From positions 1-64,000 of the forward strand of contig JQKK01000022.1 of NCBI GenBank assembly GCA_000746015.1: DNA of 64,000 nt. Direction: 5' to 3'. The position numbers were made by a program, and so were the translations under genes. The number at the start of each line of letters is the position of its first letter. Positions within the stretch are counted from its first letter, which is position 1. The notes beneath the pieces are model-generated. The model ran no database searches. It was not told the DNA's origin and saw nothing but the letters and a program-made list of their open reading frames with translations. Below, piece after piece: positions 9,397-25,754 of the stretch. Origin of the DNA: Lachnospiraceae bacterium MA2020 (GTDB lineage: Bacteria; Bacillota; Clostridia; Lachnospirales; Lachnospiraceae).

Positions 9397-9440
9397 TTCT
9401 ATCTTCCTCCTAAACAAACACAGATTTATATTCGATTTAA

Positions 9441-9500: not shown

Positions 9501-9629
9501 ATTCCCTGAGCATAGAACTAAAAGATACATATCTCACTACTTCTCATATTATCACATTGTACACTAAAAATTGTAATAAAATATCGTACAATTTGACCGT
9601 TATTAGGGTTGTATTTTCACTATTCAGAA

Positions 9630-10223: not shown

Positions 10224-10371
10224 AATATGTCTCCTATTCCTAAGAACTTATAATCTGTAAGTCCTTTATTATTAAAGGGCTACCACATGGCAGCCCTCAT
10301 TAATAACATAAATGTCACAATCTAAGATATTAGTATATTACCTATTACACTATTTTACAATAAATGCAGTA

Positions 10372-10400
10372 TTGAATTCTTGGATTTAATATGATACTAT
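10372..10400 (+). promoter_or_regulatory. Promoter of the thiolase gene
   Basis: TTGAAT (10372-10377), a 17-base spacer and TACTAT (10395-10400) lie 46 bases before the thiolase ATG, in an AT-rich stretch. No operator-like dyad was noticed. Confidence 0.55.
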
Positions 10401-10446
10401 TTACTTGTTATAATTTTAACAATTATACTTTTGGAGGTATTTTATC

Positions 10447-11634: not shown

Positions 11635-11649
11635 GACTTAATAATAATA

Positions 11650-11700
11650 CGTCACCCGGCATACCATAGTACTCAAAGGTTTGCCGGATGACGTTTTTTT
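11650..11700 (+). terminator. Terminator of thlA
   Basis: Stem of 16 bases with two mismatches: CGTCACCCGGCATACC (11650-11665) and GGTTTGCCGGATGACG (11678-11693), followed by seven T residues. Confidence 0.9.
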
Positions 11701-11707
11701 ACAATTA

Positions 11708-12625: not shown

Positions 12626-13056
12626 TATAGCCTCCCTATATACCCTATGATCGGACCCATGAAAATAGCAAGGTATATCATAGAAATCCATGGCTGATAA
12701 TCTATGTAAAACTCTTTATGTGTAAGCTGCCATGGATGCGGAATAAGAACCCATCCTATGTAATCAAGAACAATACACACAATTGCCCAGAGGCTTCCGG
12801 CTTTAATCGCAATGGAAATATCAGGCTTGGAAATCCCACGCATATAAATCCAACCGAACAACGAGAAAAAGACTATATTATAAAGAGGATGCCAAGGCTT
12901 TGTCTTCTCATAACCTTCCCCCAGACCCGGACTTTCTTTCATTGATTTGTAATGTAATACTTTAATGTTAAAAATAGTATGTATTATACCTATCCATGTT
13001 ACAACACAGTAGCATATGAAAAAGTATAATGATAAAAGTCCTATATTCTCGATCAT
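12613..13056 (-). CDS. Small multi-pass membrane protein, unrecognised
   Basis: A 147-residue, strongly hydrophobic protein with about four membrane segments (near 5-28, 57-75, 84-105 and 122-143). A loop at 35-57 is rich in charged residues. I do not recognise the family. Its start overlaps the stop of the zinc-ribbon gene as ATGA, and its end overlaps corA, so the three form one tightly coupled operon. A link to metal transport is inferred only from that coupling. Confidence 0.7.
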   Translation of the reverse strand: MIENIGLLSLYFFICYCVVTWIGIIHTIFNIKVLHYKSMKESPGLGEGYEKTKPWHPLYNIVFFSLFGWIYMRGISKPDISIAIKAGSLWAIVCIVLDYIGWVLIPHPWQLTHKEFYIDYQPWISMIYLAIFMGPIIGYIGRLYWFI

Positions 13057-13319
13057 ATCCAGCTATAGTCCCCACCTGTGACTGCAAGGCTCAAGAGCTT
13101 GTCGTACTTCTCAACATCCTCACCTTCGACCATTCTTACAAGTCTTGCTGTCTCTTTTATCTTTGGCATCTCATCATCCGGACCTATCTCCATATCCGGC
13201 TCTTCACCACAGTATGGGCATACTAGCTGTGGGCCTATGCGAACGTCAAGGAAACGACTGCCGCATGAGTCACATTCGTAATATCCACATCTTTCAGTTT
13301 CGTCTGGTACATAATACAT
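13053..13319 (-). CDS. Small zinc-ribbon protein
   Basis: An 88-residue protein with two CxxC pairs, 'YECDSCGSRF' and 'LVCPYCGEEP', that should bind one zinc ion, followed by an acidic, helical C-terminal half. There are no membrane segments. It heads the operon with the membrane protein and corA. The role is unknown; such ribbons often act in protein-protein contact or nucleic acid binding. No other domain is visible. Confidence 0.7.
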   Translation of the reverse strand: MYYVPDETERCGYYECDSCGSRFLDVRIGPQLVCPYCGEEPDMEIGPDDEMPKIKETARLVRMVEGEDVEKYDKLLSLAVTGGDYSWI

Positions 13320-13440
13320 TAGTCTATTACCTCTTTTAATTTTTTTATTATTTTACCATCTGGGGTTAATTATGAAAAGACCATGAGCATCTAACACAAT
13401 AACATGTAGCTGAAAAACTATTTTCCCTTAACGCAAATAT

Positions 13441-13472
13441 AGTAAAAGAGCTGACCATATTAGCCAGCTCAT
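13441..13472 (-). terminator. Terminator of the reductive/butyrate kinase operon
   Basis: On the minus strand GAGCTGgc...gtCAGCTC (13470-13448) is followed by TTTTACT. It lies just after the DUF1097 gene, the last gene of the operon. Confidence 0.65.
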
Positions 13473-13476
13473 CTAT

Positions 13477-13983
13477 TCATACCTTTTTTATCTGTTTTAT
13501 CAATCGCTTCTGAAATGTGTCAACACCTATTCCTACATAGACCACGCCGGCAATCATTGCGGCTCCAATCTGGATTGGAAGTGTTCCTATTTTTGCTATT
13601 GTCATAGATCCCATGATAGTAAGACCTATAGCCCAGCCGCAGAGCCAGGCAGGTGTGAAGATAAACTTTGGCACAGTCTCTCCGATCAAAACTGCTATAC
13701 CACCCATGACAAAAAGTGTTGTGTATAACTCAACTCTTGGATCAAATGACATTTTTTCCATAAGGAAAACTGCTATTACAGCCCATATATCTCCACATAG
13801 AAACCCGAGTGTGATTTTTAAGGCATCACTTACTTTATTGCCATTAGTTACGTATAATCCTGCACAGATAAGTGCTACAGCGCCTGTTGTGATACCTGCG
13901 TAGGGTGCGAGTACTGCCCATATTGGCGGCAACAGCGCTATCCCAAGCGCAAGTGTTAATTTATTTATAGTCTGCTCTTTCAT
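13477..13983 (-). CDS. DUF1097-family membrane protein
   Basis: A 168-residue protein with about five or six membrane segments and few charged residues, matching DUF1097 (YcdZ-like) in length and hydrophobic pattern. Its molecular role is unknown. It starts 3 bases after the stop of the butyrate kinase gene and ends the operon, so it is probably co-expressed with the energy-yielding enzymes; export or uptake of an acid product or substrate is one guess from position. Confidence 0.7.
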   Translation of the reverse strand: MKEQTINKLTLALGIALLPPIWAVLAPYAGITTGAVALICAGLYVTNGNKVSDALKITLGFLCGDIWAVIAVFLMEKMSFDPRVELYTTLFVMGGIAVLIGETVPKFIFTPAWLCGWAIGLTIMGSMTIAKIGTLPIQIGAAMIAGVVYVGIGVDTFQKRLIKQIKKV

Positions 13984-13986
13984 ACA

Positions 13987-15099
13987 TTATTCCCAATCGA
14001 ATTTCTCGAATCTTGGCTTGCCGGAGTATTTCTTCAATTCCTCTTCACCATTAAGTATGCGGATCGCTCCAGCAGCCATAGCTTCCATTTCAAATTCTCC
14101 CGGATATGCAAATACCGGTGCAATGAAAGAACATGCATCCTTTATATAATCAACAAGATCCTGATTATATACGATGCCGCCGCCGAGAAGGATACCATCT
14201 ACTTCACCATGAAGAACTGCAGCCATAGCTCCGATACACTTCTCGATCTGATAGATCATTGACTTCCATACCATCTCAGCACACTTATCACCCTCAGCTG
14301 CACGCTTTTTCAATGCAACTGCATCAGAGATACCTGTGTGACTTACATATCCTCCGGATTTTGTCATAAGTGGTTTTACATCTTTAACACTTAAGTTGTT
14401 TTTCTCCATATATTTCAGAAGTGCTGAAACAGAGATACTTCCGCATCGTGTTGGAGCCATAGGACCTTCACCGCCTACGATATCAAAGCCATCAACCATT
14501 TTGCCTTTTCGATGTGCAGATACTGATATTCCACCACCGATATGACATACAATGTAATTGCAATCTTCATACTTTTTGTGAAGGACATTTTTGCTGTGAC
14601 GGATTGCAGTTTCCTTTAAGTTTAATGAATGAAGGTGCATTGTGCGGTAAACGCCCTTAATACCTGTCATTCTTGCAATATCCTGCATCTCATCAACATC
14701 AGGTGGATTGACAACCATTGCTCTGCCGCCAAATTCAGCACGGAATTCTTCTGCAAGCTGTGGTCCAAGAGATGCCGGGTGGATAACACCATTTGCCATA
14801 GTTCTTGCGTGCTCAAGTATCAGATCGTCAACTTCGTAAGTACCGCCCTCTACAGCCATGAGACCGCCGCCTCTGCCGACAAAGACATCTACATCATCAA
14901 GTTTTATATCTGCTTCTTTTAACAGATCAAAGATCATATTCCGTCTATAAGGAAGCTGATCACTTATTGTTTCAAATTTAGCAAGTTCCTCTGCATCATG
15001 TGAAACATTTTTAGAAAAAAGGCACTCTTCACCCTTAAAAAGCGCTATCTTGGTAGAAGTAGAGCCTGGATTTATTGTTAAAACCTTGTATTCTTTCAT
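13987..15099 (-). CDS. buk: Butyrate kinase / short-chain acyl kinase
   Basis: Transfers phosphate from an acyl-phosphate (butyryl-, acetyl- or branched acyl-phosphate) to ADP. The 370-residue protein is an ASKHA kinase: the N-terminal phosphate loop 'LTINPGSTSTKIALF', the middle 'CHIGGGISVSAHRKGKMVD' and the adenosine-binding 'DGILLGGGIVYN' are all present. The family is about 355 residues long. Its ATG overlaps the phosphate acyltransferase stop by 4 bases (ATGA), the classic ptb-buk order. Here the pair sits at the end of a ten-gene redox/ACP operon, so the true acyl group need not be butyryl. Confidence 0.93.
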   Translation of the reverse strand: MKEYKVLTINPGSTSTKIALFKGEECLFSKNVSHDAEELAKFETISDQLPYRRNMIFDLLKEADIKLDDVDVFVGRGGGLMAVEGGTYEVDDLILEHARTMANGVIHPASLGPQLAEEFRAEFGGRAMVVNPPDVDEMQDIARMTGIKGVYRTMHLHSLNLKETAIRHSKNVLHKKYEDCNYIVCHIGGGISVSAHRKGKMVDGFDIVGGEGPMAPTRCGSISVSALLKYMEKNNLSVKDVKPLMTKSGGYVSHTGISDAVALKKRAAEGDKCAEMVWKSMIYQIEKCIGAMAAVLHGEVDGILLGGGIVYNQDLVDYIKDACSFIAPVFAYPGEFEMEAMAAGAIRILNGEEELKKYSGKPRFEKFDWE

Positions 15100-16100
15100 C
15101 TCTTATCTCCTGCGGCTCTTACTGCGCTGATCACGATATTGCCCTTTATCTCCGAAACCGGAGCACTTCTGGAGCAGTCACATACAACTTTATTGAATCC
15201 CTGAAGCATTGGACCATACGCATCAGCATGTCCAAACTGCTGAATGAGCTTTACAGCTACGTTTCCTACATTTAAGTCAGGCCAGATAACAACGTTTGCC
15301 TTACCGGCAACTTTGCTGTCTCTATTTACTTTTTTCTTTGCAACTTCTGGATTGATTGCAGCATCAAGCTGGAATTCTCCATCGATTGCAAGATCAGGAC
15401 GAAGTTCATTTGCAATCTTAACAGCCTCTGTTACCTTATCGATAAGCTCACCCTGACCACTTCCAAGAGTTGAATAGCTCACACATGCACATCTTGGCTC
15501 CCAGTCAAGAAGTGACTTTACAGTATCACATGCTGATATTGCAATGCTTGCAAGCTGTTCTGAATTAGGGTTAGTGCAAACCGCACTGTCACCTACTGCA
15601 AGAAGTGTACCTTCACTTCCATCAAATCCAGGAATATCGCATAGACCAATGCTTGAGATAGTTGAAATACCAGGCTTCATTCCAATGATCATCTGACCTG
15701 CAAGAAGTACATCACCTGTTGTATAGTCGATACCTGCAAAAGTAACATCTGCTTCTCCAGATGCCTGCATTACCATTGCAAACTGAAGTCTGTCTTCCAT
15801 ACGGCGTCTTAATGCCTTTTCCTTAAGTCTGGTATCAGGAAGAGATGTATACTTCTCAACGAGTAAAGTTTTATACTCTTCATTATTTACATCAATAATT
15901 TTGAAAACTTCCTCTTTATAACCACGCTCAGCGATAGCAGCTTTTATCTCAGCCTCATCTCCTACAAGAATTGGCTTTATATACCCTTCTGATCCTGCCT
16001 CGTAAGCTGCCTGCATCATTTTCTCGTTGAGTGCTTCCGGAAATGCAACTCTCTGAGGATTTTGCTTTGCCTTTTCAAAAATTTTATCTATTACACTCAT
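15096..16100 (-). CDS. Phosphate acyltransferase (Pta/Ptb type)
   Basis: Converts acyl-CoA plus phosphate to acyl-phosphate plus CoA, feeding the kinase next to it. The 334-residue protein aligns along its length with the short PTA_PTB fold. Visible blocks include 'RVAFPEALNEKMMQAA' at the start, 'SYSTLGSGQGELIDKV' near residue 210 and 'VWPDLNVGNVAVKLIQ' near 275, and these favour the acetyltransferase branch over classical Ptb. A GTGAGG ribosome site precedes the ATG. A hairpin separates it from the ACP gene. Since the partner is a butyrate-type kinase, the chain length handled is open. Confidence 0.85.
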   Translation of the reverse strand: MSVIDKIFEKAKQNPQRVAFPEALNEKMMQAAYEAGSEGYIKPILVGDEAEIKAAIAERGYKEEVFKIIDVNNEEYKTLLVEKYTSLPDTRLKEKALRRRMEDRLQFAMVMQASGEADVTFAGIDYTTGDVLLAGQMIIGMKPGISTISSIGLCDIPGFDGSEGTLLAVGDSAVCTNPNSEQLASIAISACDTVKSLLDWEPRCACVSYSTLGSGQGELIDKVTEAVKIANELRPDLAIDGEFQLDAAINPEVAKKKVNRDSKVAGKANVVIWPDLNVGNVAVKLIQQFGHADAYGPMLQGFNKVVCDCSRSAPVSEIKGNIVISAVRAAGDKR

Positions 16101-16120
16101 ATATTCCTCACTTTAATAGG

Positions 16121-16142
16121 CTCGTCCATACAGACGAGCCAC
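16121..16142 (-). other. Intercistronic hairpin between ACP and phosphate acyltransferase genes
   Basis: GGCTCGTC/GACGAGCC form an 8-base stem with a 6-base loop, about 20 bases before the acyltransferase start. No T-run follows, so it is more likely an RNA stability or processing element than a terminator. It could set a different expression level for the upstream redox genes and the downstream kinase pair. Confidence 0.55.
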
Positions 16143-16156
16143 ATGTATTTTTTGTA

Positions 16157-16396
16157 TTAGAGCTCCTCTTCAATGAGATCGATAAGATCAGCGATTGTCT
16201 CACATCCGCTTGCATCAGAAAGCATAAGCGCTACATCGAGTTCATTCTCGATTTCAGAAACAAGTGCAACCATCTGCACTGAAGCTCCGTTAAGATCAGT
16301 CTTAAAAGAAGTTGTCTCTGAAAGCTCAGCTACGTCCTTCTTATAAGCCATTGCTACCATATTTAAAACCTGCTCTAAAATTTCCTGTCTGCTCAT
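16157..16396 (-). CDS. Dedicated acyl carrier protein
   Basis: A 79-residue acidic helical protein of the acyl carrier family. The attachment serine is S39 in 'DLNGASVQMVALVSEIE'; the normal D-S-L motif is replaced by A-S-V, but the following helix aligns well with ordinary ACPs. It would carry an acyl group on 4'-phosphopantetheine. It is not in a fatty acid synthesis cluster: it lies between a DUF35 gene and the phosphate acyltransferase gene, and a phosphopantetheinyl transferase gene sits in the divergent operon. I infer a special-purpose carrier for the pathway of this operon. Confidence 0.85.
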   Translation of the reverse strand: MSRQEILEQVLNMVAMAYKKDVAELSETTSFKTDLNGASVQMVALVSEIENELDVALMLSDASGCETIADLIDLIEEEL

Positions 16397-16414
16397 AATT
16401 AATTACCTCTTTTC

Positions 16415-16837
16415 TTAGTTTAAATATTCATCATCTAAATCAAAAATAACTGTCTTAACACCACTGTCGCGGTCAATTATAGAAGCGTGGATATTAAGCG
16501 GAAGTTTCAGAGAAAGCTCTTTTCTGTTCTTCTTGCTGATACCACGAACTACTGCGTTAAGTCTTGTTCCTTCTTCTATCTCAACTTCACCGTAAGCAAA
16601 CTTGCCCATTTTCTTATACTCCGGCTTCGAAGAAAGTGCTGCAGGAAGAACTATTGAATGAAGCTTTGCTTTACCGCTAAGTTCAACCCACTCAGTCTCA
16701 TAGTTTCCGCACTCGTTACATGCATATACCGGAGGGAACTCTACGTGTCCGCACTTCGGGCACTTACGTCCCATTATTTTTCCCTCTTCCAGGGATAAAT
16801 AAAATTTCTCTACGATTTTTTCAAGCTTTATAGCCAT
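16415..16837 (-). CDS. DUF35 OB-fold protein with zinc ribbon
   Basis: A 140-residue DUF35-family protein. The N-terminal zinc ribbon uses C26, C29, C40 and C43 ('CPKCGHVEFPPVYACNECG'), and the rest is the acyl-CoA-binding OB fold. Family members form tight complexes with thiolase-superfamily proteins: archaeal thiolase/HMG-CoA synthase, and actinobacterial steroid aldol-lyases. The gene is directly downstream of such a thiolase-fold gene. I use the ATG at 16837 with AGGGAGG 9 bases upstream; a longer frame to 16957 overlaps the thiolase-fold gene and lacks a ribosome site. Confidence 0.88.
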   Translation of the reverse strand: MAIKLEKIVEKFYLSLEEGKIMGRKCPKCGHVEFPPVYACNECGNYETEWVELSGKAKLHSIVLPAALSSKPEYKKMGKFAYGEVEIEEGTRLNAVVRGISKKNRKELSLKLPLNIHASIIDRDSGVKTVIFDLDDEYLN

Positions 16838-16854
16838 TGTTTTATTCCTCCCTG

Positions 16855-18162
16855 TTAGTCCAATGTCCTTATAATGATCGCTGCTACATTCTGCGCTCCG
16901 CCGTAACCACGAAGCATTGTAGTCTTCGGGAGTTTCTTTACCTGACGGTCGCCGCACTCATTCCACATCTGCTTACAAGCTTCATATATATCCGCAAGAC
17001 CTGATGCAGCATGTGCATGTCCAAATGAAGTTCTTCCACCATTGGAGTTGATCGGCTTATCGCCGTCCCAGGCTGTACGTCCGTCACAGATGTACTTCCA
17101 TCCTTCACCATAAGGCAGATAGCCTGCAATCTCAGCTGATACAAGATGTGAAGTAATGATAAAGTCATTTGCAAAAAACAGATCAAGATCATCACCGGAA
17201 AGTCCTGTTGATTCATAAACCTGCTTAACAGCTTCTTCTGTAGCTCTGACTTCAAAATGAGGTGTAGTAGCTTCACATGCAGCGCTTCCGATACCAACAA
17301 CTTCAATAGGCTTATGCTTAAGATTCTTTGCAATTTCTGGAATCTTCTCAGTTGCGCATACGATACAAGCTGCTGCGCCGTCACACTTAAGCTCAAGTCC
17401 GCCTGCTCTAAGGAAATCACCCATCTTAGGGTTGTAAGGTGAATTCATGTACTCATCAAGAGTCATACCTGCTTCTTCTGCAAGTTCCTCATATGTCTTT
17501 CTCTCAATAGCAAGAGGATTTACAGATGCATTTCTTCTGTTGTTTACACACATAGCGTTAAGTGTGCGGTTCATATCCTCATCAGAAATGCCTCTTGTCC
17601 TTACGTACCACTCAGCAGCGTCATCATAGATGAGCTCCTGTCCAGCCATGAGACTTCTTGTATATGTGCGGTCATAAAGCCATGAAGTTGTTTTAAGGAA
17701 CTTCTCCATAGTCATCTTGTCACGCTTGTATGGATGCTTTGGTGTCTCTACATTGTCAGCAGGGCTTGGTGTGCTGTCACCAAACTCTACTGCGCCGGTA
17801 AGAACACAGTCATATTTTCCGGAAGCAACTGCATTTACTGCCTGCTCAATTGCAAGATAACCTGTACAACAAGCCTCTGAATGATGGATGGAGCCCTTAC
17901 CCTTCATACCAAACCAGTTTGCGATCTGCACATTTGGTGTAAGGTAATTGGAACCATTAAGCGGGCTCGCGCAGCCATGAAAATAAAAGTCTACATCCTG
18001 AGGATTTACTCCGGCATCTTCCATTGCCTTAAGTGCAGCATAGCCGAAAAGCTCACCCTCTGTGAGTCCATTAGTCTCCTCTTTATCAACCGTATACATG
18101 AAAGGTGTACATCCTACACCGATAATGGATACGCTTCTTGCATATTTTCCAAAAGTTTTCAT
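16855..18162 (-). CDS. Thiolase-superfamily protein (SCP2-thiolase/aldol-lyase-like)
   Basis: A 435-residue protein with the thiolase fold. A cysteine pair (C98, C99) in 'HHSEACCTGYLAIEQ' sits at the nucleophile position, and 'NGGRTSFGHAHAASG' (H382) matches the GHP block with alanine instead of proline. The second catalytic cysteine block is replaced by 'RGYGGAQN'. This matches the SCP2/Ltp2-like branch, some of which are retro-aldolases and not thiolases, working with DUF35 partners. The DUF35 gene follows 17 bases after its stop. It could make or break a C-C bond on an acyl-CoA or acyl-ACP; direction and substrate cannot be read from sequence. Confidence 0.85.
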   Translation of the reverse strand: MKTFGKYARSVSIIGVGCTPFMYTVDKEETNGLTEGELFGYAALKAMEDAGVNPQDVDFYFHGCASPLNGSNYLTPNVQIANWFGMKGKGSIHHSEACCTGYLAIEQAVNAVASGKYDCVLTGAVEFGDSTPSPADNVETPKHPYKRDKMTMEKFLKTTSWLYDRTYTRSLMAGQELIYDDAAEWYVRTRGISDEDMNRTLNAMCVNNRRNASVNPLAIERKTYEELAEEAGMTLDEYMNSPYNPKMGDFLRAGGLELKCDGAAACIVCATEKIPEIAKNLKHKPIEVVGIGSAACEATTPHFEVRATEEAVKQVYESTGLSGDDLDLFFANDFIITSHLVSAEIAGYLPYGEGWKYICDGRTAWDGDKPINSNGGRTSFGHAHAASGLADIYEACKQMWNECGDRQVKKLPKTTMLRGYGGAQNVAAIIIRTLD

Positions 18163-18179
18163 ATGTATTAACCTCTTTT

Positions 18180-18752
18180 TTATCGTTTACACGGAATAGG
18201 TTTTGCAGGGCACTTTGGCTTTTTTGCACCTGCCATAACGATTGCGTCTTCATCACAGGCATCCATGCACTTTCCGCAGAGAGTGCATTCATTAAGATCT
18301 ATTACATGAACAAATTTCTTCTTTCCAAGGATCGCTTCATCTTCGCATGCGTCCATACATTCTCCGCAGCCAATGCACTTGCTGGCAAGAATGTGATATG
18401 TCATAAACTTCTTACATACACCTGCACGGCAGCCCTTCTTAGAAATATGCTCATCAAAAATATCCCCATAATTTTCAAGTGCTGTTTTAACAGCATCTGC
18501 GATTTCTTCTCCATCTTCGCAAAGAGACTGTGTTTTCATCATGTAACACAAGTCTTTAATAAGGTCCTTATCACCTGAGCGACCCTTCTTTTCCGTGATA
18601 TCTTTAAGTATCAACTCAAGCTGTGTGATTCCTTCATATCCAAAAACACATTTCCCGCAGTCCTTGCAGGGATGTTTCTCGACTTCTTTAAGAAGGACAT
18701 CAACTACGCACTGATCTTCTTTTAGATCTGTGATCTTTGCTGTGCTATTCAT
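18180..18752 (-). CDS. NuoF C-terminal-like FeS protein with two [4Fe-4S] ferredoxin sites
   Basis: A 190-residue electron carrier. Residues 25-105 resemble only the C-terminal FeS part of NuoF/HydB ('CKDCGKCVFG' then a helical bundle), without the FMN/NADH domains. A 'CRAGVC' linker leads to two ferredoxin motifs, 'CIGCGECMDAC' and 'CTLCGKCMDAC'. Normally this arrangement is the tail of a 570-600-residue NADH-binding subunit, so this is a split or stand-alone version. I start it at the ATG 18752, six bases after AGGAGG; that ribosome site lies just downstream of the preceding gene's stop. It likely shuttles electrons from the fusion flavoprotein encoded immediately upstream. Confidence 0.85.
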   Translation of the reverse strand: MNSTAKITDLKEDQCVVDVLLKEVEKHPCKDCGKCVFGYEGITQLELILKDITEKKGRSGDKDLIKDLCYMMKTQSLCEDGEEIADAVKTALENYGDIFDEHISKKGCRAGVCKKFMTYHILASKCIGCGECMDACEDEAILGKKKFVHVIDLNECTLCGKCMDACDEDAIVMAGAKKPKCPAKPIPCKR

Positions 18753-18766
18753 TTCCATCCTCCTCA

Positions 18767-20854
18767 TCAATACTCGTTCCAAAGCTTTACTTTGGATATG
18801 GTTGTTCTAAGATCACACTGAAGACATCTTCCTGCCTCACACTTTGCCTGATCACAGGTAAGCGGCTTTTCGATAGCATCAAATCCGCTCTTTCTCTGTT
18901 CAGCATCCATTATCTCTGCTTCATTTCTCTTAAGATCTGCAAAGCCTTCGATACGGCCGATATATTTTTCAGGTGCTTCACGATCAGTCAGTACTTCACT
19001 GATATCGCCGTCTCCACCAAGATATCTGTCGATTGCTGATGCAGCTTCTCTACCTCCTGCAATAGCTTCAATAACAGATTTTGTACCGGTTACAACGTCA
19101 CCTGAAGCAAAAATTCCCTCAACGCTTGTTGCATGATCTTTTGCTGCAATATATGGTCCATGTGTAAGCTCTATGCCCATTTTTTCAGTTCCGAGCGGCT
19201 TTTGACCAACAGCAAAGATGACATTGTCAACTTCAACTATCTGATTTGAACCTTCTTCAAGCTCTATGATCGCTTTTCTATTTTCATCAAAGTAGAATTT
19301 ATTTACCTTCTGAAGCTCAACACCTGTTGCTTTGGTGTCACCAGTAATGCGCAGGAAGGAATGAGCTGCGTGAAGGATAACTCCTTCATCTTCGCCTTCT
19401 TTTCTCTCATCTTCTGATGATGTCATCTGCTGAAGGTTCTCAAGACATGCAATGTGTACTTCCTTTGCACCAAGCCTGATAGCAGTTCTTGCGCAGTCAT
19501 ATGCCACGTTACCGCCACCAAGCACCATTACACGCTCACCTACAGGAAGAGGATTTCCTTCTCTTGCGGCTTTCAAAAAGTCAGCGTTTACATATACTCC
19601 TTCAAGGTCATTTCCCTCTAAAGGAAGCTTGGTTCCCTGATGTGTACCGATAGAAACCAAAACAGCATCATAGCCATCATTCAAAAGCTTTGCCGGCTCT
19701 TCTACTGCTTCACCAGTTCTAAGCTCAAAACCTGCTTCAAGAATCGTATTTATCTCTCTGTCAAGAAGTTCATCCGGAAGTCTGTATGATGGGATACCAT
19801 ATCTGCACTGACCACCTGCTCTTACATTTTTCTCAAATACAGTTACATCATGGCCCTTTTTCGCAAGATAATATGCAGCAGTGAGTCCGGAAGGACCTGC
19901 ACCTATAACGGCAACTTTCTTACCTGTCTTTGCATCTTTTCTTACACGTTCTTTCCATGCTCCGCTGTCTACAGTTGCAGCTGCCCTCTTGAGTCTGCAT
20001 ATGGAAACAGGAGAATTGAGTTCGCCTCTCTTACAGTTGCTCTCGCAATTTCTGGTACATACAGATCCAAGAGTTTCAGGAAATGGAACCTTCTCCCTGA
20101 TAATAGCTGTTGCTTTATCAAAGTTTCCTTCCTTTATAGCTCTTATATACTCAGGGATATCTACGTGTGCAGGACATGTACTTCTGCAAGGAACTACATT
20201 TTCCTCATATGTTCTTTCCGGCTTCATGATCTTAAATGCATCCATTATAGAGCCGGTAGGACATACTTCTATACAAGCTCCACAGAATCTGCATCCTGCT
20301 TCTGCAAGAGATTTTCCATCAGGAACTCCTGCTCTTATGCCGGCATCTGTCTTCACATAGTCAAGTACTTTTACACCACGCATCTCCTGGCATGCACGGA
20401 TACAACGACCACAGCGTACACATCTGGTGAACAGATGTGATATAAGAGGGTTGCTCTCATCATTTGCAACTGCTCTTGACTTCTTTCTCCATCTTTCAGG
20501 GCTCACCCCCATGTACTGATACATTGACTGAAGCTCGCATTTTCCATACTTTGGACATCCGGTACAGTCAGCAGGATGTGTTGCAAGGATCAATTCCATT
20601 GCTGTCTTTCTGACTTTTTCTGCTTCAGGTCCGTTTATGGTGATCTTCATACCTTCTGCAACTTGTGTCTTGCAGGCAGGATGTGCACCTTCCATTCCCT
20701 CTATCTCAACTGAGCAGAGTCGACATCCACCCTTTGCTTCAAGGTCTGGATGTGAACATAAATGTGGAATAAAAACTCCTGCTTCAAGAGCAGCGTCAAG
20801 TACTGACTTGCCCTCTGAAGCTTCAATTTCCTTTCCATCAATAAATATCTTCAT
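18767..20854 (-). CDS. NuoG-type FeS domain fused to GltD/NfnB-type NAD(P)H flavoprotein
   Basis: A 695-residue fusion. Residues 1-80 form a [2Fe-2S] plant-type domain ('HLCSHPDL', 'GGCRLCSVEI'). Next come a His/Cys cluster site ('THPADCTGCPKYGKC') and two [4Fe-4S] sites ('CVRCGRCIRAC', 'CRFCGACIEVC'), as in NuoG or HydA. From about 225 it is a glutamate-synthase-small-subunit-like module with its own FeS cysteines, an FAD site 'VAVIGAGPSGLTAAYYL', an NAD(P)H site 'VMVLGGGNVAYDCA' and 'GIFASGDVVTG'. It should take electrons from NAD(P)H through FAD into FeS clusters. Similar fusions occur in anaerobes, with roles in bifurcation or anaerobic reductases. The start ATG is 20854; a TTG at 20863 is also possible. 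Confidence 0.9.
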   Translation of the reverse strand: MKIFIDGKEIEASEGKSVLDAALEAGVFIPHLCSHPDLEAKGGCRLCSVEIEGMEGAHPACKTQVAEGMKITINGPEAEKVRKTAMELILATHPADCTGCPKYGKCELQSMYQYMGVSPERWRKKSRAVANDESNPLISHLFTRCVRCGRCIRACQEMRGVKVLDYVKTDAGIRAGVPDGKSLAEAGCRFCGACIEVCPTGSIMDAFKIMKPERTYEENVVPCRSTCPAHVDIPEYIRAIKEGNFDKATAIIREKVPFPETLGSVCTRNCESNCKRGELNSPVSICRLKRAAATVDSGAWKERVRKDAKTGKKVAVIGAGPSGLTAAYYLAKKGHDVTVFEKNVRAGGQCRYGIPSYRLPDELLDREINTILEAGFELRTGEAVEEPAKLLNDGYDAVLVSIGTHQGTKLPLEGNDLEGVYVNADFLKAAREGNPLPVGERVMVLGGGNVAYDCARTAIRLGAKEVHIACLENLQQMTSSEDERKEGEDEGVILHAAHSFLRITGDTKATGVELQKVNKFYFDENRKAIIELEEGSNQIVEVDNVIFAVGQKPLGTEKMGIELTHGPYIAAKDHATSVEGIFASGDVVTGTKSVIEAIAGGREAASAIDRYLGGDGDISEVLTDREAPEKYIGRIEGFADLKRNEAEIMDAEQRKSGFDAIEKPLTCDQAKCEAGRCLQCDLRTTISKVKLWNEY

Positions 20855-20871
20855 CTGAATCAAAACCTCTA

Positions 20872-22365
20872 TTATTCATAATCATCAAAATCTTCTGAAC
20901 CTGCAGAAGCATTCTCACCTGCTATACGTCCGCTGTTCAGGCAGAAGCCCATTGTATTTCCGGAAAGGATAAATGGATAGCTGTCACCAAAGATGTTGCA
21001 TGCATCTGTTCCTGCACAGTAAAGACCCGGAATAACCTTTGCATCCTGAGTAAGTACCTGTGTCTTATGGTTGATCTTTACGCCGCCGAGTGAACCATAA
21101 GCACCAACATTTTCACGGCAGAGATAGAATGGAGCCTTCTCGATTGGCTGCATATATGCGCGGTCTTTTTCGAAGATTTCATCGAATCCTGCTTCGCACA
21201 TCTCGTTATATTCTTCGATCTGAGCTACAAGTCCTTCTACATCAATTCCAGCCTTTTCTGCAAGCTCTTCGATAGTATCAGCCTGTACGATTGGCTCATA
21301 TCCATCAGCAAGATCTCTCTCCCACTGCTCATCAAAGTGATCAAAAAGATCGTGTGGATGAACATGTGAAACGATATCCGGTCCCTTCTTCTTATACTTC
21401 TTAAGAAGCTTACTATCGAAGATCGCATATGCTACCTTACCTGGCTGAGCAGCTATGGCATTACCTGTAAAAGTTGTATTTGCAATCTGATCCTCAGGCA
21501 TGAATCTCTGACCGTTTCTATTTACCCAAAGGCATGGCTGACGGAATGCACCATCAAGAATAAAGTGGTTCATGTTGTCAGGAAGCTGATACATAAGCTC
21601 CATGATACAAGGCTCCTTGCCTGCTCCTGCTTCCCATGCCATCTTGATTCCTTCGCCCTTCATTCCAGGGATTGCAAAGTTATATATAGTATTTCCATAC
21701 TCAAATTCTGTCTGCTCTTTGATCATCTCAGGATTGTCACCGAAACCGCCTGTGCAGATAATAACTGCGTTTGCACGAGCTTCAATCTCTTCACCGTTTT
21801 TATCAACAGCTATTACACCTACTGCTGCACCGTCTTCCATGATGATCTTCTTTACTGGTGTCTCAAACTGAAAATCAACACCAAGATCCTTTGCTCTCTC
21901 TGTCATCTTCTTAGTCATGGCAGTCGCACATCTTGGTCCAGGCATACCACCGTCCTCAGGCTTTACAACGTGCCATGTGAACTCACCGTCAGAATAAGCA
22001 CGTGTAGCTTCTGGTGCGCTGAATGCTCTCTGTACGCCTACAAACTCAACGCCCATATTCATAAGCCAGTCGATAGTGTCACCTGACTTAAAGTAATAAT
22101 CTCTTACCATACGTGCATCTACTTTATAGTGAGTGAAGTACATATGCTTACGGAAAGCTTCACCTGGAGTAAGTGAGATCATATGCTCTCTCTGGATCCT
22201 GGAACCTACTCCAAGAGGACCCATTCCCATATTTGCTGCACCACCTGTTGTTGATGACTTTTCAAATGTGATAACGCTTGCACCGTTCTCAGCGGCTGCA
22301 ATACTTGCTGCAAGACCTGAAAGGCCTGCTGCAACGACAATTACGTCTGCACTTAACTGCTTCAT
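20872..22365 (-). CDS. Fumarate-reductase-like FAD oxidoreductase
   Basis: A 497-residue soluble flavoprotein of the FAD_binding_2 family, which contains fumarate, urocanate and acrylate-type reductases and ketosteroid dehydrogenases. No signal peptide, FMN or heme domain is visible, so it is cytoplasmic and needs a partner for electrons; the FeS genes beside it fit. The dinucleotide motif reads 'VVAAGLSGLAAS' with alanine (A12) for the first glycine. The closing FAD block is 'GLYCAGTDACNIFGDSYP'. It probably reduces a C=C bond next to a carbonyl, but the substrate is unknown. The ATG is preceded by AGGAGG. Confidence 0.85.
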   Translation of the reverse strand: MKQLSADVIVVAAGLSGLAASIAAAENGASVITFEKSSTTGGAANMGMGPLGVGSRIQREHMISLTPGEAFRKHMYFTHYKVDARMVRDYYFKSGDTIDWLMNMGVEFVGVQRAFSAPEATRAYSDGEFTWHVVKPEDGGMPGPRCATAMTKKMTERAKDLGVDFQFETPVKKIIMEDGAAVGVIAVDKNGEEIEARANAVIICTGGFGDNPEMIKEQTEFEYGNTIYNFAIPGMKGEGIKMAWEAGAGKEPCIMELMYQLPDNMNHFILDGAFRQPCLWVNRNGQRFMPEDQIANTTFTGNAIAAQPGKVAYAIFDSKLLKKYKKKGPDIVSHVHPHDLFDHFDEQWERDLADGYEPIVQADTIEELAEKAGIDVEGLVAQIEEYNEMCEAGFDEIFEKDRAYMQPIEKAPFYLCRENVGAYGSLGGVKINHKTQVLTQDAKVIPGLYCAGTDACNIFGDSYPFILSGNTMGFCLNSGRIAGENASAGSEDFDDYE

Positions 22366-22379
22366 ATATTTTCCTCCTA

Positions 22380-23324
22380 TCAGATACCCTTAAAATTCTT
22401 TTCTTTATATCTAAGTATTTTCTTACCTACGATTTCTCTGTTTTCAGGATTTGCAAAGAATCCACCCTGTGTCTGGCCGATTTCTTCAAGGTGTCTTGCA
22501 CGACCTTCAACAGTTGTTCTGTCCTTTAAGAGACCATCTTTCTGAATAACAAACTTCCACTTACCATCTTCTGTCTTTTCAAGATTTCCGCCTGCTCCAC
22601 AAACCTGACACTCAATTGGATAGTGAAGTCCATCCCACTGAGGCTCACCAAGAACAAGTGCATTTGAGTGACAGTTTGGACACCAGCCCATATCCTCGTC
22701 ACCGAGCCACTTTCTTTCCTCAGCTGGTGTCTTTACTGCTGTCATGATATTCTCACCCATCTTGTGTGCTCTTGCGATGAGCTCATCATTAAGAAGAACC
22801 TGAGCTGGTCCAGGAACTCTTGTTGCAAGGATCATATCAACAACCTTCATATCTGTAGTGAACATTGTAGCCTGCATTCCTTCTAATGCCATTGACTGCC
22901 ATGCACGTGTAGAGCCGCCTACTGAAATCAAGCCTGCAACTCTGTCTCTATGCTCAATAGCTCCAATTGTCTCAAGAAACGCTGTTTCATAGCTTAAGCT
23001 TCTCTGTGCAAATGCCAGATAATTAGCAGAAGGCATCAGATCGTAAGTTGGAACTGAATAAATGACGGCATCCTGATCAAGCAGGATATCCATGATCTTT
23101 TTCTTGTCATCTTTATCATCAAGCACGCAGCCAGTGTGCTTTCCCTGTGACATTCCGATAGTGCAGGATGTGCATCCGGTGCAGTCAAGAATGTTGTAAT
23201 CGCGAAGATTGATCATTGTAACTTCTGCTCCTGCCTCTTCGCAAGCGATAAGCGCTTCCTTCAGAAGTATTTCACTATTACTGTTTTTTCTTCCGGAAGT
23301 AACTCCCATTACCTTAATTCCCAT
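22380..23324 (-). CDS. Iron-sulfur flavoprotein (FMN reductase fold) with zinc ribbon
   Basis: First gene of the operon, 314 residues. The N-terminal flavodoxin-like fold of NADPH-dependent FMN reductases carries a compact cysteine motif, 'LDCTGCTSCTIG' plus 'TGCVLDD', as in archaeal Isf proteins that bind [4Fe-4S] and FMN. The C-terminal third has a zinc-ribbon-like set, 'GWCPNCHSN' and 'IECQVCGAGG', not usual in Isf. It would pass electrons between ferredoxin-like and flavin carriers. The next gene starts 14 bases after its stop. Its promoter lies in the shared region with the PucR regulator. Confidence 0.82.
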   Translation of the reverse strand: MGIKVMGVTSGRKNSNSEILLKEALIACEEAGAEVTMINLRDYNILDCTGCTSCTIGMSQGKHTGCVLDDKDDKKKIMDILLDQDAVIYSVPTYDLMPSANYLAFAQRSLSYETAFLETIGAIEHRDRVAGLISVGGSTRAWQSMALEGMQATMFTTDMKVVDMILATRVPGPAQVLLNDELIARAHKMGENIMTAVKTPAEERKWLGDEDMGWCPNCHSNALVLGEPQWDGLHYPIECQVCGAGGNLEKTEDGKWKFVIQKDGLLKDRTTVEGRARHLEEIGQTQGGFFANPENREIVGKKILRYKEKNFKGI

Positions 23325-23462
23325 TGATTTCTCCTTAAATATTTATAAAATTGTTATTTGGCTATTTATTGATATAACGTTTTTTACGTCGGAATCATTG
23401 AATTGCCTTGATAGTTAAGAATTTATCATTCTTTGTACTAATATTCATCCAACATGTATTCA

Positions 23463-23512
23463 GTTATTGTTACAAAAATAACATATCTTTTCCGACAAAT
23501 GTCTGATATAAT
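23463..23512 (+). promoter_or_regulatory. Divergent control region: operator-like dyads and extended -10 promoter
   Basis: An extended -10 (TGATATAAT, 23504-23512) faces the PucR gene 35 bases on; the -35 is weak. Immediately upstream are two dyads: GTTATT/AATAAC (23463-23482) and GACAAATGTC (23494-23503). On the other side, toward the redox operon, ATAACGTTTTTTACGT (about 23375-23390) is a further ACGT repeat. The arrangement fits control of both operons from this 220-base gap, probably by the PucR protein. Confidence 0.55.
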
Positions 23513-23546
23513 ATCTGTTATCGCTGACTATAGGAGAACTCACAAA

Positions 23547-25073
23547 ATGGCTTATTTATCGGATATTGTAAGTATTCTCGAAAAGAAATACCACATAGTA
23601 ATACATGGAAAAAAGCAAAACAGACGTACAATTGACGGAATACATTTCTTCAATGATAATGATGCAAACATTGAACATTTGTCACCAAACATTCTGTATC
23701 TTGCTGATTTTGACAAGTATGGAGACGCTGAAGTATATGGTGATGTGATGTTTTTAGGAACACATGGATGTGTGCCTTCATCAGATTCTTTATATATAGA
23801 TGAAAAGATCGATCTTATAGATTTTTACAACACCTGTGAAGATGTCATACTATCATATCGCAGGACAGATCTGGAAAAGCAGCAGCTTTTCAATATTCTG
23901 CATAACGGATACGGACTTGAAACACTGCTCAAAACAGCATATAAGTATCTTAACAATCAGATCGTTGTATGTGACAGTAGTTACGGTGTCTTATCTTCTT
24001 ATCCTGAGCTCGATGACACAGAAAATCTCGAGACAAAGAACAACCGTCTTACCGTAAGAGCACGCTATGCAGAGGACATGGAGCAGAAAAAGGTCACAGA
24101 GAGGATCTACCATTCCGTATACCCTTTTGCTACCAAATTTGATGACTATCCATATCTTTGGATATTTGAAAGCATTAGGATAAAGCATGCAGTAGTCGGA
24201 TATATCTGTATCCGCTGCAATGAACGAGAGCACACTGAAAGCGATCTGGAGCTCATACATGCTCTTACAAAGATGGTTTCTATACAGCTGCAAAAAGACG
24301 ACAGTTATAGAAATCCACAAGGAATAAAATATGATATTTTCCTCAAAGAATTATTCGAGAGGCATTATGACGAGGAAATGGCAAATGAACAGCTGACACT
24401 GATAGGTATTAAACCAAACATTTACTACTTCATTGTTACCTGCAGCTTTACCAAAAATACACAGCGTCTGATGGCATATCACCATTATATACATCAGATA
24501 ACAAATATTTTCACTAACAGTGTCACCGGAGTTTTCGGAAGCCGTTTCGTAACGCTAATTCCTTCAGATTCAATGGAAATTCTTGATGAAAAGACCGAAA
24601 AGCGGTTAAAAACGTTTCTAACAATGAACAATATGATCGCTACCGTAAGCCATGTTTATGATAAACTGACAGATAGCTATGCATACTATTTTCAGTGTCA
24701 GGGATTGCTGTCGCAAAGGCTCAACCTATTTAACGATTGCCCGATAATATACTATAATGACCATTATTTATGGCATATTCTGAGTGCGTTAAATAAGCCC
24801 GCGCTTGCTGAAGCATCGATTAATCCGTCTATTAAATTCATGAAAAAGCATGATGAACAGAACGGAACAAATTATATTTCGACACTCAGAGCATATTTTG
24901 AAAATAAACGAAGTGCGCCCGCAACCGCTGCAGCGCTCTTTATACATAAATCAACACTATTTTACCGCTTCGAAAAAATGAAACAGCTCTTTCAGATCGA
25001 GCTGGATAACAGCGATGCGCTATTTTCTTATGAATACTCATTAAGGCTCCTTGATGAGTTACATTATGAATGA
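23547..25073 (+). CDS. PucR/CdaR-type transcriptional regulator
   Basis: A 508-residue activator-type regulator. The N-terminal part has the look of a PucR N-terminal domain, the middle (about 180-270) of a GAF-like sensor, and the C-terminal 60 residues form the PucR helix-turn-helix ('TLRAYFENKRSAPATAAALF' then 'HKSTLFYRFEKMKQLF'). Family members respond to pathway substrates and usually control adjacent catabolic genes. I use the ATG at 23547 with AGGAGA 9 bases upstream; the longer frame from 23454 would run through the promoter. It is divergent from the redox operon and 33 bases before the phosphopantetheinyl transferase gene. Confidence 0.85.
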   Translation: MAYLSDIVSILEKKYHIVIHGKKQNRRTIDGIHFFNDNDANIEHLSPNILYLADFDKYGDAEVYGDVMFLGTHGCVPSSDSLYIDEKIDLIDFYNTCEDVILSYRRTDLEKQQLFNILHNGYGLETLLKTAYKYLNNQIVVCDSSYGVLSSYPELDDTENLETKNNRLTVRARYAEDMEQKKVTERIYHSVYPFATKFDDYPYLWIFESIRIKHAVVGYICIRCNEREHTESDLELIHALTKMVSIQLQKDDSYRNPQGIKYDIFLKELFERHYDEEMANEQLTLIGIKPNIYYFIVTCSFTKNTQRLMAYHHYIHQITNIFTNSVTGVFGSRFVTLIPSDSMEILDEKTEKRLKTFLTMNNMIATVSHVYDKLTDSYAYYFQCQGLLSQRLNLFNDCPIIYYNDHYLWHILSALNKPALAEASINPSIKFMKKHDEQNGTNYISTLRAYFENKRSAPATAAALFIHKSTLFYRFEKMKQLFQIELDNSDALFSYEYSLRLLDELHYE

Positions 25074-25106
25074 CAGATATGATATAAGATATGGAAAGGT
25101 TTTGAA

Positions 25107-25754
25107 ATGATCCATTCAATACACCAAAAAACTTTAATGCCTGAGATCATGGTTTATATCCTTGACACAGAATTACTAAAAGGATCTGAAGATCGGCTTC
25201 TACCTTTGATCCCGGCATACTATAAAGATAAATATGAGGATACATCAAATGCAGAAGCAAAGCTGCAGGAGCTTGGAGCAGGATATCTTCTTTATAAATA
25301 TAGGAAATTGGATAATAATTCAACGATTACAAAGAACGAATGTGGAAAGCCAAAGATAGATGGCGATCATGTCGGTGAACACACTGAATTCAGCATTTCT
25401 CACAGTGATAATTTCGTTGCACTTGCAATAAGTCCGATTCCTGTTGGGGTAGACATAGAAAATGCAGAGAGGATCACTCTTCCTATATTGAGAAGAGTTC
25501 TCCCCCCTGCAGATTTTGAACAGATAAAAAATAACAGTGATAAATATACTTTTGCGAAATATTGGACAAAGGTTGAAGCTGTGTTAAAGGCTCGCGGTAC
25601 CGGTTTTCTTCTTGATCCAAGGACAAATGCTTCATTTATGGACGGATGGTACGCTGAAAGCCATGTAATAAATGAAAATCACATGCTCAGCTGTGCCGCC
25701 GAAAGACCATTTAATATGATACTTCATTATCACAACCACTCCATTTTTCCATAA
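25107..25754 (+). CDS. 4'-phosphopantetheinyl transferase (Sfp type)
   Basis: Moves the 4'-phosphopantetheine arm from CoA to a carrier protein serine. The 215-residue protein has the magnesium-binding 'PVGVDIENAERI' (D116, E118) and the second block 'KYWTKVEAVLKARGTGF' (E156, K161), where KEA has become KVEA. Length is typical of Sfp enzymes. It is co-transcribed with the PucR gene and faces an operon that encodes a non-standard ACP, so the likely main client is that ACP. The NRPS-like protein encoded at 50.2-53.8 kb is another possible client. Confidence 0.88.
   Translation: MIHSIHQKTLMPEIMVYILDTELLKGSEDRLLPLIPAYYKDKYEDTSNAEAKLQELGAGYLLYKYRKLDNNSTITKNECGKPKIDGDHVGEHTEFSISHSDNFVALAISPIPVGVDIENAERITLPILRRVLPPADFEQIKNNSDKYTFAKYWTKVEAVLKARGTGFLLDPRTNASFMDGWYAESHVINENHMLSCAAERPFNMILHYHNHSIFP

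Follow-up and report, generated by a model that had tools for sequence, protein, structure and literature searches.

What do ten tightly packed genes that join redox flavoproteins to an acyl carrier protein and an acyl kinase do in Lachnospiraceae bacterium MA2020? The genes are collinear on the minus strand (13477-23324) of the window, i.e., the whole 64,000-nucleotide stretch that was analysed, with intergenic gaps of -16 to +56 bp (the former counted from the first TTG of the NFt gene). The first-pass annotation had described this same-strand set together with a divergent PucR-type regulator (23454..25073, plus strand) and a divergent phosphopantetheinyl transferase (PPTase; 25107..25754, plus strand), and all members were present, in order, with agreeing Pfam and NCBIfam families. 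The PPTase matched PPTase models only weakly, below cutoff, and its Sfp-type label was given from protein size and these matches. A one-module NRPS-like gene lies approximately 25 kb from the operon. The answer that we favour, with somewhat better than even confidence, is that the operon performs an energy-conserving cleavage of flavonoids (polyphenols), in which the acyl group would be caught on the acyl carrier protein (ACP) and yield ATP via a phosphate acyltransferase and a kinase. The literature listings searched contained no description of the module, which is apparently undescribed.

Homologous loci were retrieved using the gene of the thiolase-like acyltransferase (Thi; 16855..18162) alone as the query; the best 80 of the 132 relatives found were retained, and neighbours were counted only in retained loci with sufficient flank (54, 45, and 37 loci for 3, 5, and 9 kb, respectively). 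Within 3 kb of Thi, the gene of the dedicated ACP (16157..16396) was present in 54/54 loci and that of the DUF35 protein, the zf-ChsH2 zinc-ribbon partner of Thi (16415..16837), in 52/54. Within 5 kb, the Pta-like phosphate acyltransferase (PTA_PTB; 15096..16100) and the butyrate-kinase-family acyl kinase (Buk; 13987..15099) were present in 45/45 and 43/45 loci, respectively. Within 9 kb, DUF1097 (13477..13983; a transport role is only a guess) was present in 24/37 loci, PPTase or AcpS in 16/37, and the redox genes FB2 or NGG in 22/37, with neither of the two in 15/37. The core from Thi to Buk is therefore nearly constant, whereas about 60% of the loci have redox genes inside the 9-kb range. 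The grouping is conserved across Thi homologous loci, and the chance adjacency of redox and ACP/kinase genes, which had been named as grounds for rejecting the module, was not borne out.

This conservation also bears on whether the locus holds ordinary butyrate or branched-chain fermentation genes that adjoin redox genes by accident. Buk does score above the butyrate kinase cutoff (TIGR02707; 366.5 bits, cutoff 289.1), but the genome contains a second Buk-like gene elsewhere (43%), adjoining a weak Pta/Ptb-family match, and a second Pta, so that the operon copies look like extra ones. Acyl-CoA dehydrogenase/Etf models were absent from the operon, and the conserved association (43/45 to 54/54 loci) is joined by DUF35-ACP fusions in distant relatives (seven distinct genes in five genomes, three of the seven with two ACPs). 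Neighbourhood conservation largely refutes this explanation, which we regard as extremely improbable. The designation of the neighbouring enzyme as a phosphate acyltransferase held at the family level, with a clear Pfam domain, and its placement could be refined as nearer to Pta (TIGR00651; 255.7, below the cutoff of 311.2) than to Ptb (TIGR02706; 72.1, far below the cutoff of 410.5). Neither NCBIfam cutoff was reached, and equivalence to pta or ptb was rejected.

The first gene (22380..23324) had been annotated as an FeS flavoprotein. No FeS model matched, and its Cys pairs align with the C-terminal region of the flavone reductase FLR; we instead assign it as a window-type FMN ene-reductase (Pfam FMN_red) of the FLR superfamily. 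In HMMER searches, its sole real PDB relative was 7d38, the FLR of F. plautii (E 1.2e-30, residues 4-297). Under the definition of FLR membership as FMN_red with a C-terminal tail, ≥30% identity, and ≥80% coverage relative to F. plautii FLR (PMC7862272), it is a borderline member (30.1% identity over 98%, FLR residues 2-290). The FLR substrate-contact residues S147, W149, H271, and I275 (Yang et al. 2021, PMC7862272) were all matched in the MAFFT alignment, where S147 and W149 occurred in 29/29 window-type sequences and H271 and I275 in 28/29 (one gap); the W149 match depends on the aligner, since HMMER, aligning the protein with 7d38, shifts it by two positions. FLR K282 and several FMN contacts differ. 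Placement inside the FLR clade was rejected, as a midpoint-rooted FastTree tree of 78 sequences resolved the window-type proteins as a sister clade (supports 0.999 and 0.982). Together with locus L068, which carries both a true FLR and a window-type protein, this position suggests that the reaction may differ from flavone reduction. FLR had no match in the window genome at E≤1e-50, and true FLR orthologs (about 59-72% identity) were present in sister clusters.

Three further redox genes follow. FB2 (20872..22365) is a soluble FAD_binding_2 reductase whose nearest NCBIfam model is vinyl phenol reductase VprA; identity with VprA was rejected because the equivalog score was not reached (322.9 bits, cutoff 600), and its relatives also include flavocytochrome c and urocanate reductase. 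NGG (18767..20863), a NuoG-N/GltD fusion, is probably an FeS flavoprotein that donates electrons in an NAD(P)H-dependent manner, and NFt (18180..18782; an alternative start at ATG 18767 is possible) combines a NuoF C-terminal FeS domain with two [4Fe4S] motifs. The redox quartet occurred without the thiolase/ACP half in three of the seven Thi-less genomes that have the window-type FMN protein (L157, L158, and L159), and the divergent PucR-like gene adjoins it also in L157 and L159. Among the seven genomes with both a window-type FMN protein (≥60% identity) and Thi, only three, including the window genome (G000, G380, and G154), had them on one contig; the other four in the 397-genome sample (G230, G292, G309, and G354) had them on separate contigs. 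Because the quartet is found without the thiolase/ACP half, the electrons most likely pass to a free flavonoid-type substrate before carrier loading, rather than to an ACP-bound acyl group. The earlier proposal of NAD(P)H-driven reduction, ACP, and Pta/Buk in one module is supported as to the conserved grouping and refined as to the destination of the electrons; it had recognised neither the FLR kinship of the first gene nor the flavonoid/polyphenol catabolism genes around the sister clusters.

The surroundings of related clusters make polyphenol or flavonoid catabolism very likely as the pathway class. L068 and L075 combine FLR (58.7% identity) with FB2, NGG, NFt, Buk, Thi, DUF35, ACP, and Pta. 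In L168, FLR (72% identity) lies upstream of FB2-NGG-NFt (78, 68, and 53%, respectively), with one 149-aa gene intervening, and the locus also carries ACP-CocE-Pta-Buk-DUF1097; relatives of DUF1097 are found in both L168 and L171, which are FLR clusters. In L157, the quartet, whose FB2-NGG-NFt show 85, 66, and 51% identity, respectively, stands beside a PF18089 gene (PDB phloretin hydrolase 5xe5, E 3e-21). In L159, it stands beside an unrelated set, ACP-CocE-Pta-Buk (CocE being a hydrolase), and in L175, which lacks the quartet, an ACP-ACP-CocE fusion adjoins Pta, Buk, AcpS, and FLR. The evidence for exchange of the cleavage part comes from these few loci, i.e., phloretin hydrolase (Phy) in L157 and ACP-CocE in L159, L168, and L175 (the last without the quartet). 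It is conceivable, at slightly less than even chances, that ACP-dependent substrate-level phosphorylation from aryl-acyl cleavage arose at least twice in gut anaerobes, with the unrelated folds of thiolase/DUF35 and a CocE-type alpha/beta-hydrolase; flavonoid-derived acylphenols would be split onto an ACP, either dedicated or fused, and Pta and Buk would turn the acyl group into ATP.

The same module might instead serve another reduced polyphenol or enone (for instance, an isoflavone-derived deoxybenzoin, a lignan, or a beta-diketone), split on ACP by a retro-Claisen or thiolytic reaction that likewise gives ATP, with C6-C3-C6 flavonoids not the main substrate. Consistent with this are the position of the window FMN protein outside the FLR clade, the proximity of FB2 to vinyl phenol reductase, yet below cutoff, and the division of Thi into several subgroups whose reductases differ (an SDH-type flavoprotein and an FeFe-hydrogenase-like protein in L126, a URO-D-like gene in L129), as might be expected of a family with many aromatic substrates. 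The position of FB2-NGG-NFt beside phloretin hydrolase in L157 and near FLR in L168, at the identities given above, argues against it, and we consider this alternative rather unlikely.

Among 397 family genomes (20 with Thi and 377 without), C-glycoside deglycosidase (CGDB) was found in 13/20 Thi genomes vs. 21/377 others (P 6e-11), FLR in 8/20 vs. 12/377 (P 8e-7), and PF18089 in 8/20 vs. 18/377 (P 8e-6; 26/397 overall); none of the three was found in 5/20 Thi genomes, and part of the co-occurrence may be due to gut generalists whose accessory genomes are large. The window genome has one CGDB match, on another contig. Chalcone isomerase PF18232 had no match there, in a search whose controls gave no match either. 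PF18089 genes also lie inside two distant Thi loci, L126 and L129; together with the eight genomes, this indicates that Thi is not everywhere a simple Phy substitute. Accordingly, Phy or another hydrolase might cleave the C-C bond, with Thi/DUF35/ACP in a later step or side branch such as arylpropionate chain-shortening or the processing of a phloroglucinol-derived 3-oxo acid; phloroglucinol degradation likewise ends in thiolase, kinase, and acyltransferase (PMC10470551). However, PF18089 had no match in the window genome or in 12/20 Thi genomes, and ACP-linked modules and Phy seem to alternate beside the same quartet, making this arrangement improbable.

In the reading we prefer, Thi itself would carry out the cleavage. 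The AF2 model (pLDDT 72.9) has thiolases as nearest structures, several with DUF35 partners, and resembles PhlC, MucABC, and BbsB. The predicted nucleophile C98 did not vary in alignments of 27 and of 14 sequences, and H62 and H382 are conserved. These positions were compared with PhlC His56 and His347-Asp352. In an HMM alignment, H62 aligns with PhlC Y53, three residues before the catalytic His56; H382 lies within the thiolase GHxxG motif, and S387 appears to be at the position of PhlC Asp352 by manual motif count. Model pLDDT is low in the loops bearing the residues of the H62/H382 regions. The pair shares with PhlABC-type Friedel-Crafts acyltransferases a thiolase-like subunit with a predicted nucleophilic Cys next to a DUF35 subunit. 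DUF35 probably starts at ATG 16837 (a longer ORF from GTG 16957 would overlap Thi), and its CxxC..CxxC was kept in 121/121 DUF35 ORFs (110-400 aa, duplicates counted). The ACP attachment Ser, in a GAS[VI] motif, was kept in 98/98 ACP ORFs (duplicates counted); the window genome encodes three further stand-alone ACP-like ORFs (81-83 aa). The DUF35-ACP fusions tie ACP to the Thi/DUF35 pair, and we are quite confident that ACP is its acyl acceptor, probably activated by the divergent PPTase.

Every step is reversible in principle. In the opposite direction, the kinase and Pta would spend ATP to charge ACP with a fatty or aromatic acid, after which Thi/DUF35 would C-acylate a phenol or condense acyl groups, yielding an acylphenol or polyketide-like product after the manner of PhlABC. 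The structural likeness of Thi to PhlC, MucABC, and BbsB, the PPTase and ACP typical of biosynthesis, and the NRPS-like gene noted above fit this direction, but no separate HMGS-like A subunit or KASIII-like protein was found among the ten operon proteins. The relatives' neighbours are catabolic (C-glycoside deglycosidase, GH3, Gfo/Idh/MocA, sugar symporter, FLR, Phy, and BKACE). CGDB lies near Thi in L112, L085, L087, and L107 (the L085 copy confirmed by scan), but only 6/37 loci have a CGDB, TIM-barrel, or Gfo gene inside the 9-kb range. An MFS transporter group whose representative exceeds the SfMCT monocarboxylate cutoff occurs near Thi in 12/37 loci. A catabolic, ATP-forming direction is likely, and biosynthesis is improbable, slightly more so than the later-step arrangement. 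PhlABC/MucABC C-acyltransferases further differ in that PhlC His56 is not aligned in Thi and in that the operon includes ACP. Identity with the benzoylsuccinyl-CoA thiolase BbsAB, which works with CoA rather than ACP, was rejected (BbsB 94.7, cutoff 750; BbsA 26.5, cutoff 250).

The genomic evidence for the pathway class and the ACP coupling is strong; the substrate, direction, and mechanism are what we infer. In the proposed pathway, NAD(P)H electrons would pass through the NuoG/GltD and NuoF-tail FeS proteins to the FLR-like FMN enzyme and FB2, which, judging by enzyme class, would act on a flavonoid aglycone by reducing C=C bonds, opening the C-ring, or both, in an order still conjectural, to give a dihydrochalcone-type (phloretin-like) ketone. 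There is about an even chance that the substrate of cleavage is such an acylphloroglucinol. Thi/DUF35 would split the aryl-acyl C-C bond by a reverse Friedel-Crafts or retro-Claisen reaction, releasing a phloroglucinol-type phenol. The acyl group, bound at first to Cys98, would then move to the phosphopantetheine arm that the PPTase had attached to ACP. The Pta homolog would phosphorolyse the arylalkanoyl-ACP to an acyl-phosphate, from which Buk would form ATP and an aromatic acid. The net result would be substrate-level phosphorylation from a bond otherwise hydrolysed by Phy.

The check for a characterised counterpart gave a partial match, the FLR-CHI/Fcr-Phy route of Flavonifractor, Eubacterium ramulus, and Clostridium butyricum, in the last of which the FLR, Fcr, and Phy genes are consecutive (PMC11868195). 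In both systems, an FLR-superfamily ene-reductase is clustered with a further reductase and, after it, an enzyme for C-C cleavage (a predicted role in the operon), and genes of the known route (true FLR, 72%; Phy or CHI) occur in sister clusters of the operon. However, the operon has FB2/NGG/NFt at the position of Fcr/CHI-enoate reductase, and the Phy step is apparently replaced by Thi/DUF35/ACP/Pta/Buk, with a predicted ATP yield. Ptb-Buk and Pta-Ack share the acyl-phosphate-forming transferase and Buk-family kinase, whereas the operon's pair is linked to ACP and thiolase/DUF35. The phloroglucinol cluster of C. scatologenes deals with the ring product expected from the operon's cleavage and gains ATP from acetyl/butyryl units (PMC10470551); genes similar to those described there flank the L157 quartet (BKACE and CoA transferase by scanning; a thiolase and a second CoA transferase by eye), with no Thi/DUF35/ACP.

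If the proposed pathway is correct, Butyrivibrio-type bacteria of the gut and rumen would earn energy by fermenting flavonoids in this way instead of just detoxifying them incidentally, and the gain would help to explain why these bacteria retain the genes. The known Phy route appears to waste energy that the operon would keep as ATP, and the use of ACP instead of CoA in ATP-forming catabolism would be, to our knowledge, unusual. The operon genes would also serve as markers for a second, Phy-independent route of flavonoid cleavage, which homology surveys based on FLR, Fcr, CHI, and Phy would overlook.

Ten genes of the window form one closely packed array on the minus strand, running from 23324 to 13477 with intergenic gaps of −16 to +56 bp. 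In order, they encode an FMN_red flavoprotein (FMN), an FAD_binding_2 flavoprotein (FB2), a NuoG-N/GltD fusion (NGG), a NuoF-tail/4Fe-4S protein (NFt), a thiolase-like protein (Thi), a DUF35 protein, an acyl carrier protein (ACP), a Pta-like transferase (Pta), a butyrate-kinase-family protein (Buk) and a DUF1097 protein. The first-pass annotation had described ten same-strand genes with small gaps or overlaps, together with a divergent PucR-type regulator and PPTase, and all of this was borne out. Among the best 80 of 132 relatives, the nearest Thi genes were those of Lachnospiraceae bacterium KH1P17 and Butyrivibrio spp. (97–99% identity), placing the source genome in the Lachnospiraceae near Butyrivibrio. 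The window also holds an NRPS-like protein (50204–53809, minus strand; AMP-binding, PP-binding and Condensation domains), which the PPTase could serve as well, two adjacent ORFs of the aconitase family (PF00330; 415 aa at 35695–36942 and 413 aa at 37473–38714, both on the plus strand), and a Resolvase/MerR plus TnpB-like gene pair (2839–4702, plus strand), which we take to be an IS607-type element.

Homologous loci were retrieved by Thi alone, the best 80 of 132 relatives were kept, and neighbours were counted only where the flank was sufficient. ACP and DUF35 genes lay within 3 kb of Thi in 54/54 and 52/54 loci, and Pta and Buk genes within 5 kb in 45/45 and 43/45 loci, respectively. Of 37 loci, 24 have DUF1097 within 9 kb, 22 have FB2 or NGG, 20 a window-type FMN, 16 a PPTase/AcpS and 12 an MFS transporter of monocarboxylate type. 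The core is thus nearly invariant and the redox half frequent but not universal. Chance adjacency, for which neighbourhood comparison had been proposed as the test, was rejected on the core counts (43/45 to 54/54). The ACP attachment serine was retained in 98/98 ACP ORFs and the DUF35 zinc motif in 121/121 ORFs of 110–400 aa, where genes in several fetched loci were counted repeatedly. Ordinary butyrate fermentation was also rejected, since the genome carries additional Buk- and Pta-like genes elsewhere. A SnoaL-like protein, possibly an isomerase or cyclase acting on a polyphenol, recurs near Thi modules (L096, domain-scanned; L081, L093, L110, L113 and L121, by BLAST).

In distant relatives (Thi identity about 45–48%), DUF35 is fused to ACP, which ties the carrier protein to the Thi/DUF35 pair. 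The 11 long DUF35 ORFs correspond to 7 distinct genes from 5 genomes, three of which carry two ACP domains; the ACP part was confirmed by an ACP HMM and, in the L126 copy, the sole one scanned, also by Pfam PP-binding. The Thi structure model was mediocre (pLDDT 72.9) and was therefore used for fold class only; compared with 1000 chains, it matched thiolases in general, and a family missing from that list is not thereby excluded. In an HMM alignment, H62 of Thi stands three positions off the catalytic His56 of PhlC, and any transfer of the PhlC catalytic triad to Thi would be tentative. Locus L126 also contains an SDH-type flavoprotein and a FeFe-hydrogenase-like protein between two DUF35-ACP fusion/thiolase sets (8102–18049, minus strand), as well as a PF18089 gene (3329–4144). 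URO-D-like genes, perhaps O-demethylating methyltransferases, were seen near distant Thi modules in L119 (13659–14696, by eye), L128 (4271–5302, by eye) and L129 (7251–8252, scanned; 15597–16622, by eye).

The only real PDB relative of the FMN protein was 7d38 (E = 1.2e-30), deposited as the flavone reductase FLR of Flavonifractor plautii, whose substrate- and flavin-site residues include Ser147, Trp149, His271 and Ile275 according to an excerpt of PMC7862272. All four are kept in the FMN protein in a MAFFT alignment, Trp149 falling two residues off in the HMMER alignment. The two proteins share 30% identity over 98% coverage, and the tree places the FMN protein in a clade sister to FLR, so we regard it as an FLR-superfamily ene-reductase of unproven substrate and do not accept it as a bona fide FLR. 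A search of the window genome for FLR at E≤1e-50 returned no match. FLR-clade genes do share clusters with the Thi module in other loci (58.7% identity in L068 and L075, 47% in L099 and 45% in L050). Once the FLR relationship had emerged, the initial idea, a generic reductive fermentation of amino acids or fatty acids, was abandoned. In L161, L162, L165 and L167, an OYE/BaiCD-like reductase is paired with a window-type FMN gene, an arrangement that may be analogous to FLR-Fcr.

The window FMN protein matched 14 of 397 family genomes at ≥60% identity, 7 with Thi and 7 without. Where both were present, they shared a contig in only three genomes (the window genome G000, G380 and G154) and were on separate contigs in four (G230, G292, G309 and G354). 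This slightly lowered our confidence in the favoured reading, in which a flavonoid is reduced to an acylphloroglucinol-type ketone, its acyl group is passed to ACP by Thi/DUF35, and arylalkanoic acid and ATP are formed by Pta/Buk; we still consider it somewhat more probable than otherwise. The same result slightly raised the rival view that the module acts on a different substrate, which we nevertheless hold to be rather unlikely.

The seven Thi-less FMN loci comprised three with the redox quartet FMN-FB2-NGG-NFt (L157, L158 and L159), two with an OYE-type reductase (L161 and L162) and two with neither (L160 and L163). Locus L157 has, next to the quartet and a PucR-like gene in divergent orientation, a PF18089 gene matching phloretin hydrolase (Phy; PDB 5xe5, E = 3e-21). 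It also has a BKACE and a CoA-transferase gene and, recognized by eye, a thiolase gene and another CoA-transferase gene. BKACE, CoA-transferase and thiolase are the gene kinds that an excerpt of PMC10470551 lists for the breakdown of phloroglucinol by C. scatologenes. L158 stops at a contig end. In L159, the quartet accompanies ACP, Pta, Buk, DUF1097 and MFS genes and a CocE/NonD-family hydrolase (17005–19016, minus strand) adjoined by the separate ACP gene. Locus L168 repeats the ACP-CocE-Pta-Buk-DUF1097 set (hydrolase at 3626–5683, again with a separate adjoining ACP gene), and there an FLR ortholog (72% identity) precedes FB2 (78%), NGG (68%) and NFt (53%), with one 149-aa gene intervening. 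An 841-aa ACP-ACP-CocE fusion (L175, 14173–16698, minus strand) lies with FLR, Buk, Pta and AcpS, the quartet being absent. The CocE/NonD hydrolase has a fold unrelated to Thi/DUF35 and apparently fills the same role. Wide stretches were fetched for 9 of 21 FLR matches (L168–L176), several ending at contig ends, and a Buk-family gene lay within 10 kb in four (L168, L170, L171 and L175). A 277–278-aa gene in the FLR/Buk neighbourhood of L170 was clearly identified as a chalcone isomerase (PF18232; PDB 4d06, E = 5e-97), and its L171 counterpart was likened to it by eye only. Taken together, redox/FLR genes of this type are found repeatedly in company with a cleavage part, of which there are three kinds: Thi-DUF35-ACP-Pta-Buk, ACP-CocE-Pta-Buk, and Phy. 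The second and third kinds are represented by one to three loci each.

Of the 397 family genomes, 20 contain Thi (E≤1e-40), 34 contain CGDB (PF19906), a subunit of C-glycoside deglycosidase, 26 contain PF18089 and 20 contain FLR (E≤1e-50). All three polyphenol markers were more frequent in Thi genomes than in Thi-less ones (CGDB, 13/20 vs 21/377, P = 6e-11; FLR, 8/20 vs 12/377, P = 8e-7; PF18089, 8/20 vs 18/377, P = 8e-6), with P values that are uncorrected for phylogenetic non-independence and gut-generalist bias and lack a control family. Five Thi genomes (G033, G227, G317, G354 and G367) had none of the three. The presence of PF18089 in 8 of 20 Thi genomes led us to reject a strict family-wide replacement of Phy by Thi. 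CGDB lay about 3 kb from Thi in L112 and within 10 kb in L085 (scanned), L087 and L107; in the 13 genomes with both, 5 of 41 CGDB hits were within 25 kb of Thi (≤1.4 expected, P = 0.011), a modest enrichment. Recurrent gene groups in the 80 Thi loci, identified by scanned representatives, included GH39/AraC (12 loci), Gfo/Idh/MocA (10 loci), MFS_2 sugar symporters (8 loci) and GH3 (3 loci), and ABC transporter genes recurred by eye. CGDB, Gfo or xylose-isomerase-like TIM-barrel genes, the last presumably Dgp-like, lay within 9 kb of Thi in only 6 of 37 loci.

In C. butyricum, the FLR, Fcr and Phy genes are consecutive, as described in an excerpt of PMC11868195. The window resembles this arrangement in having an FLR relative, whereas its reductase set differs and the ACP-linked set occupies the place of Phy. 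No module joining thiolase, DUF35, ACP and kinase with flavonoid degradation was found by title or abstract among the open-access papers listed, in line with the first-pass suggestion of a possibly undescribed gene set. Our verdict is that the module represents an apparently new form of anaerobic flavonoid catabolism, for which the genomic evidence on both the pathway class, flavonoid catabolism, and the coupling to ACP is strong and the chemistry is inferred.
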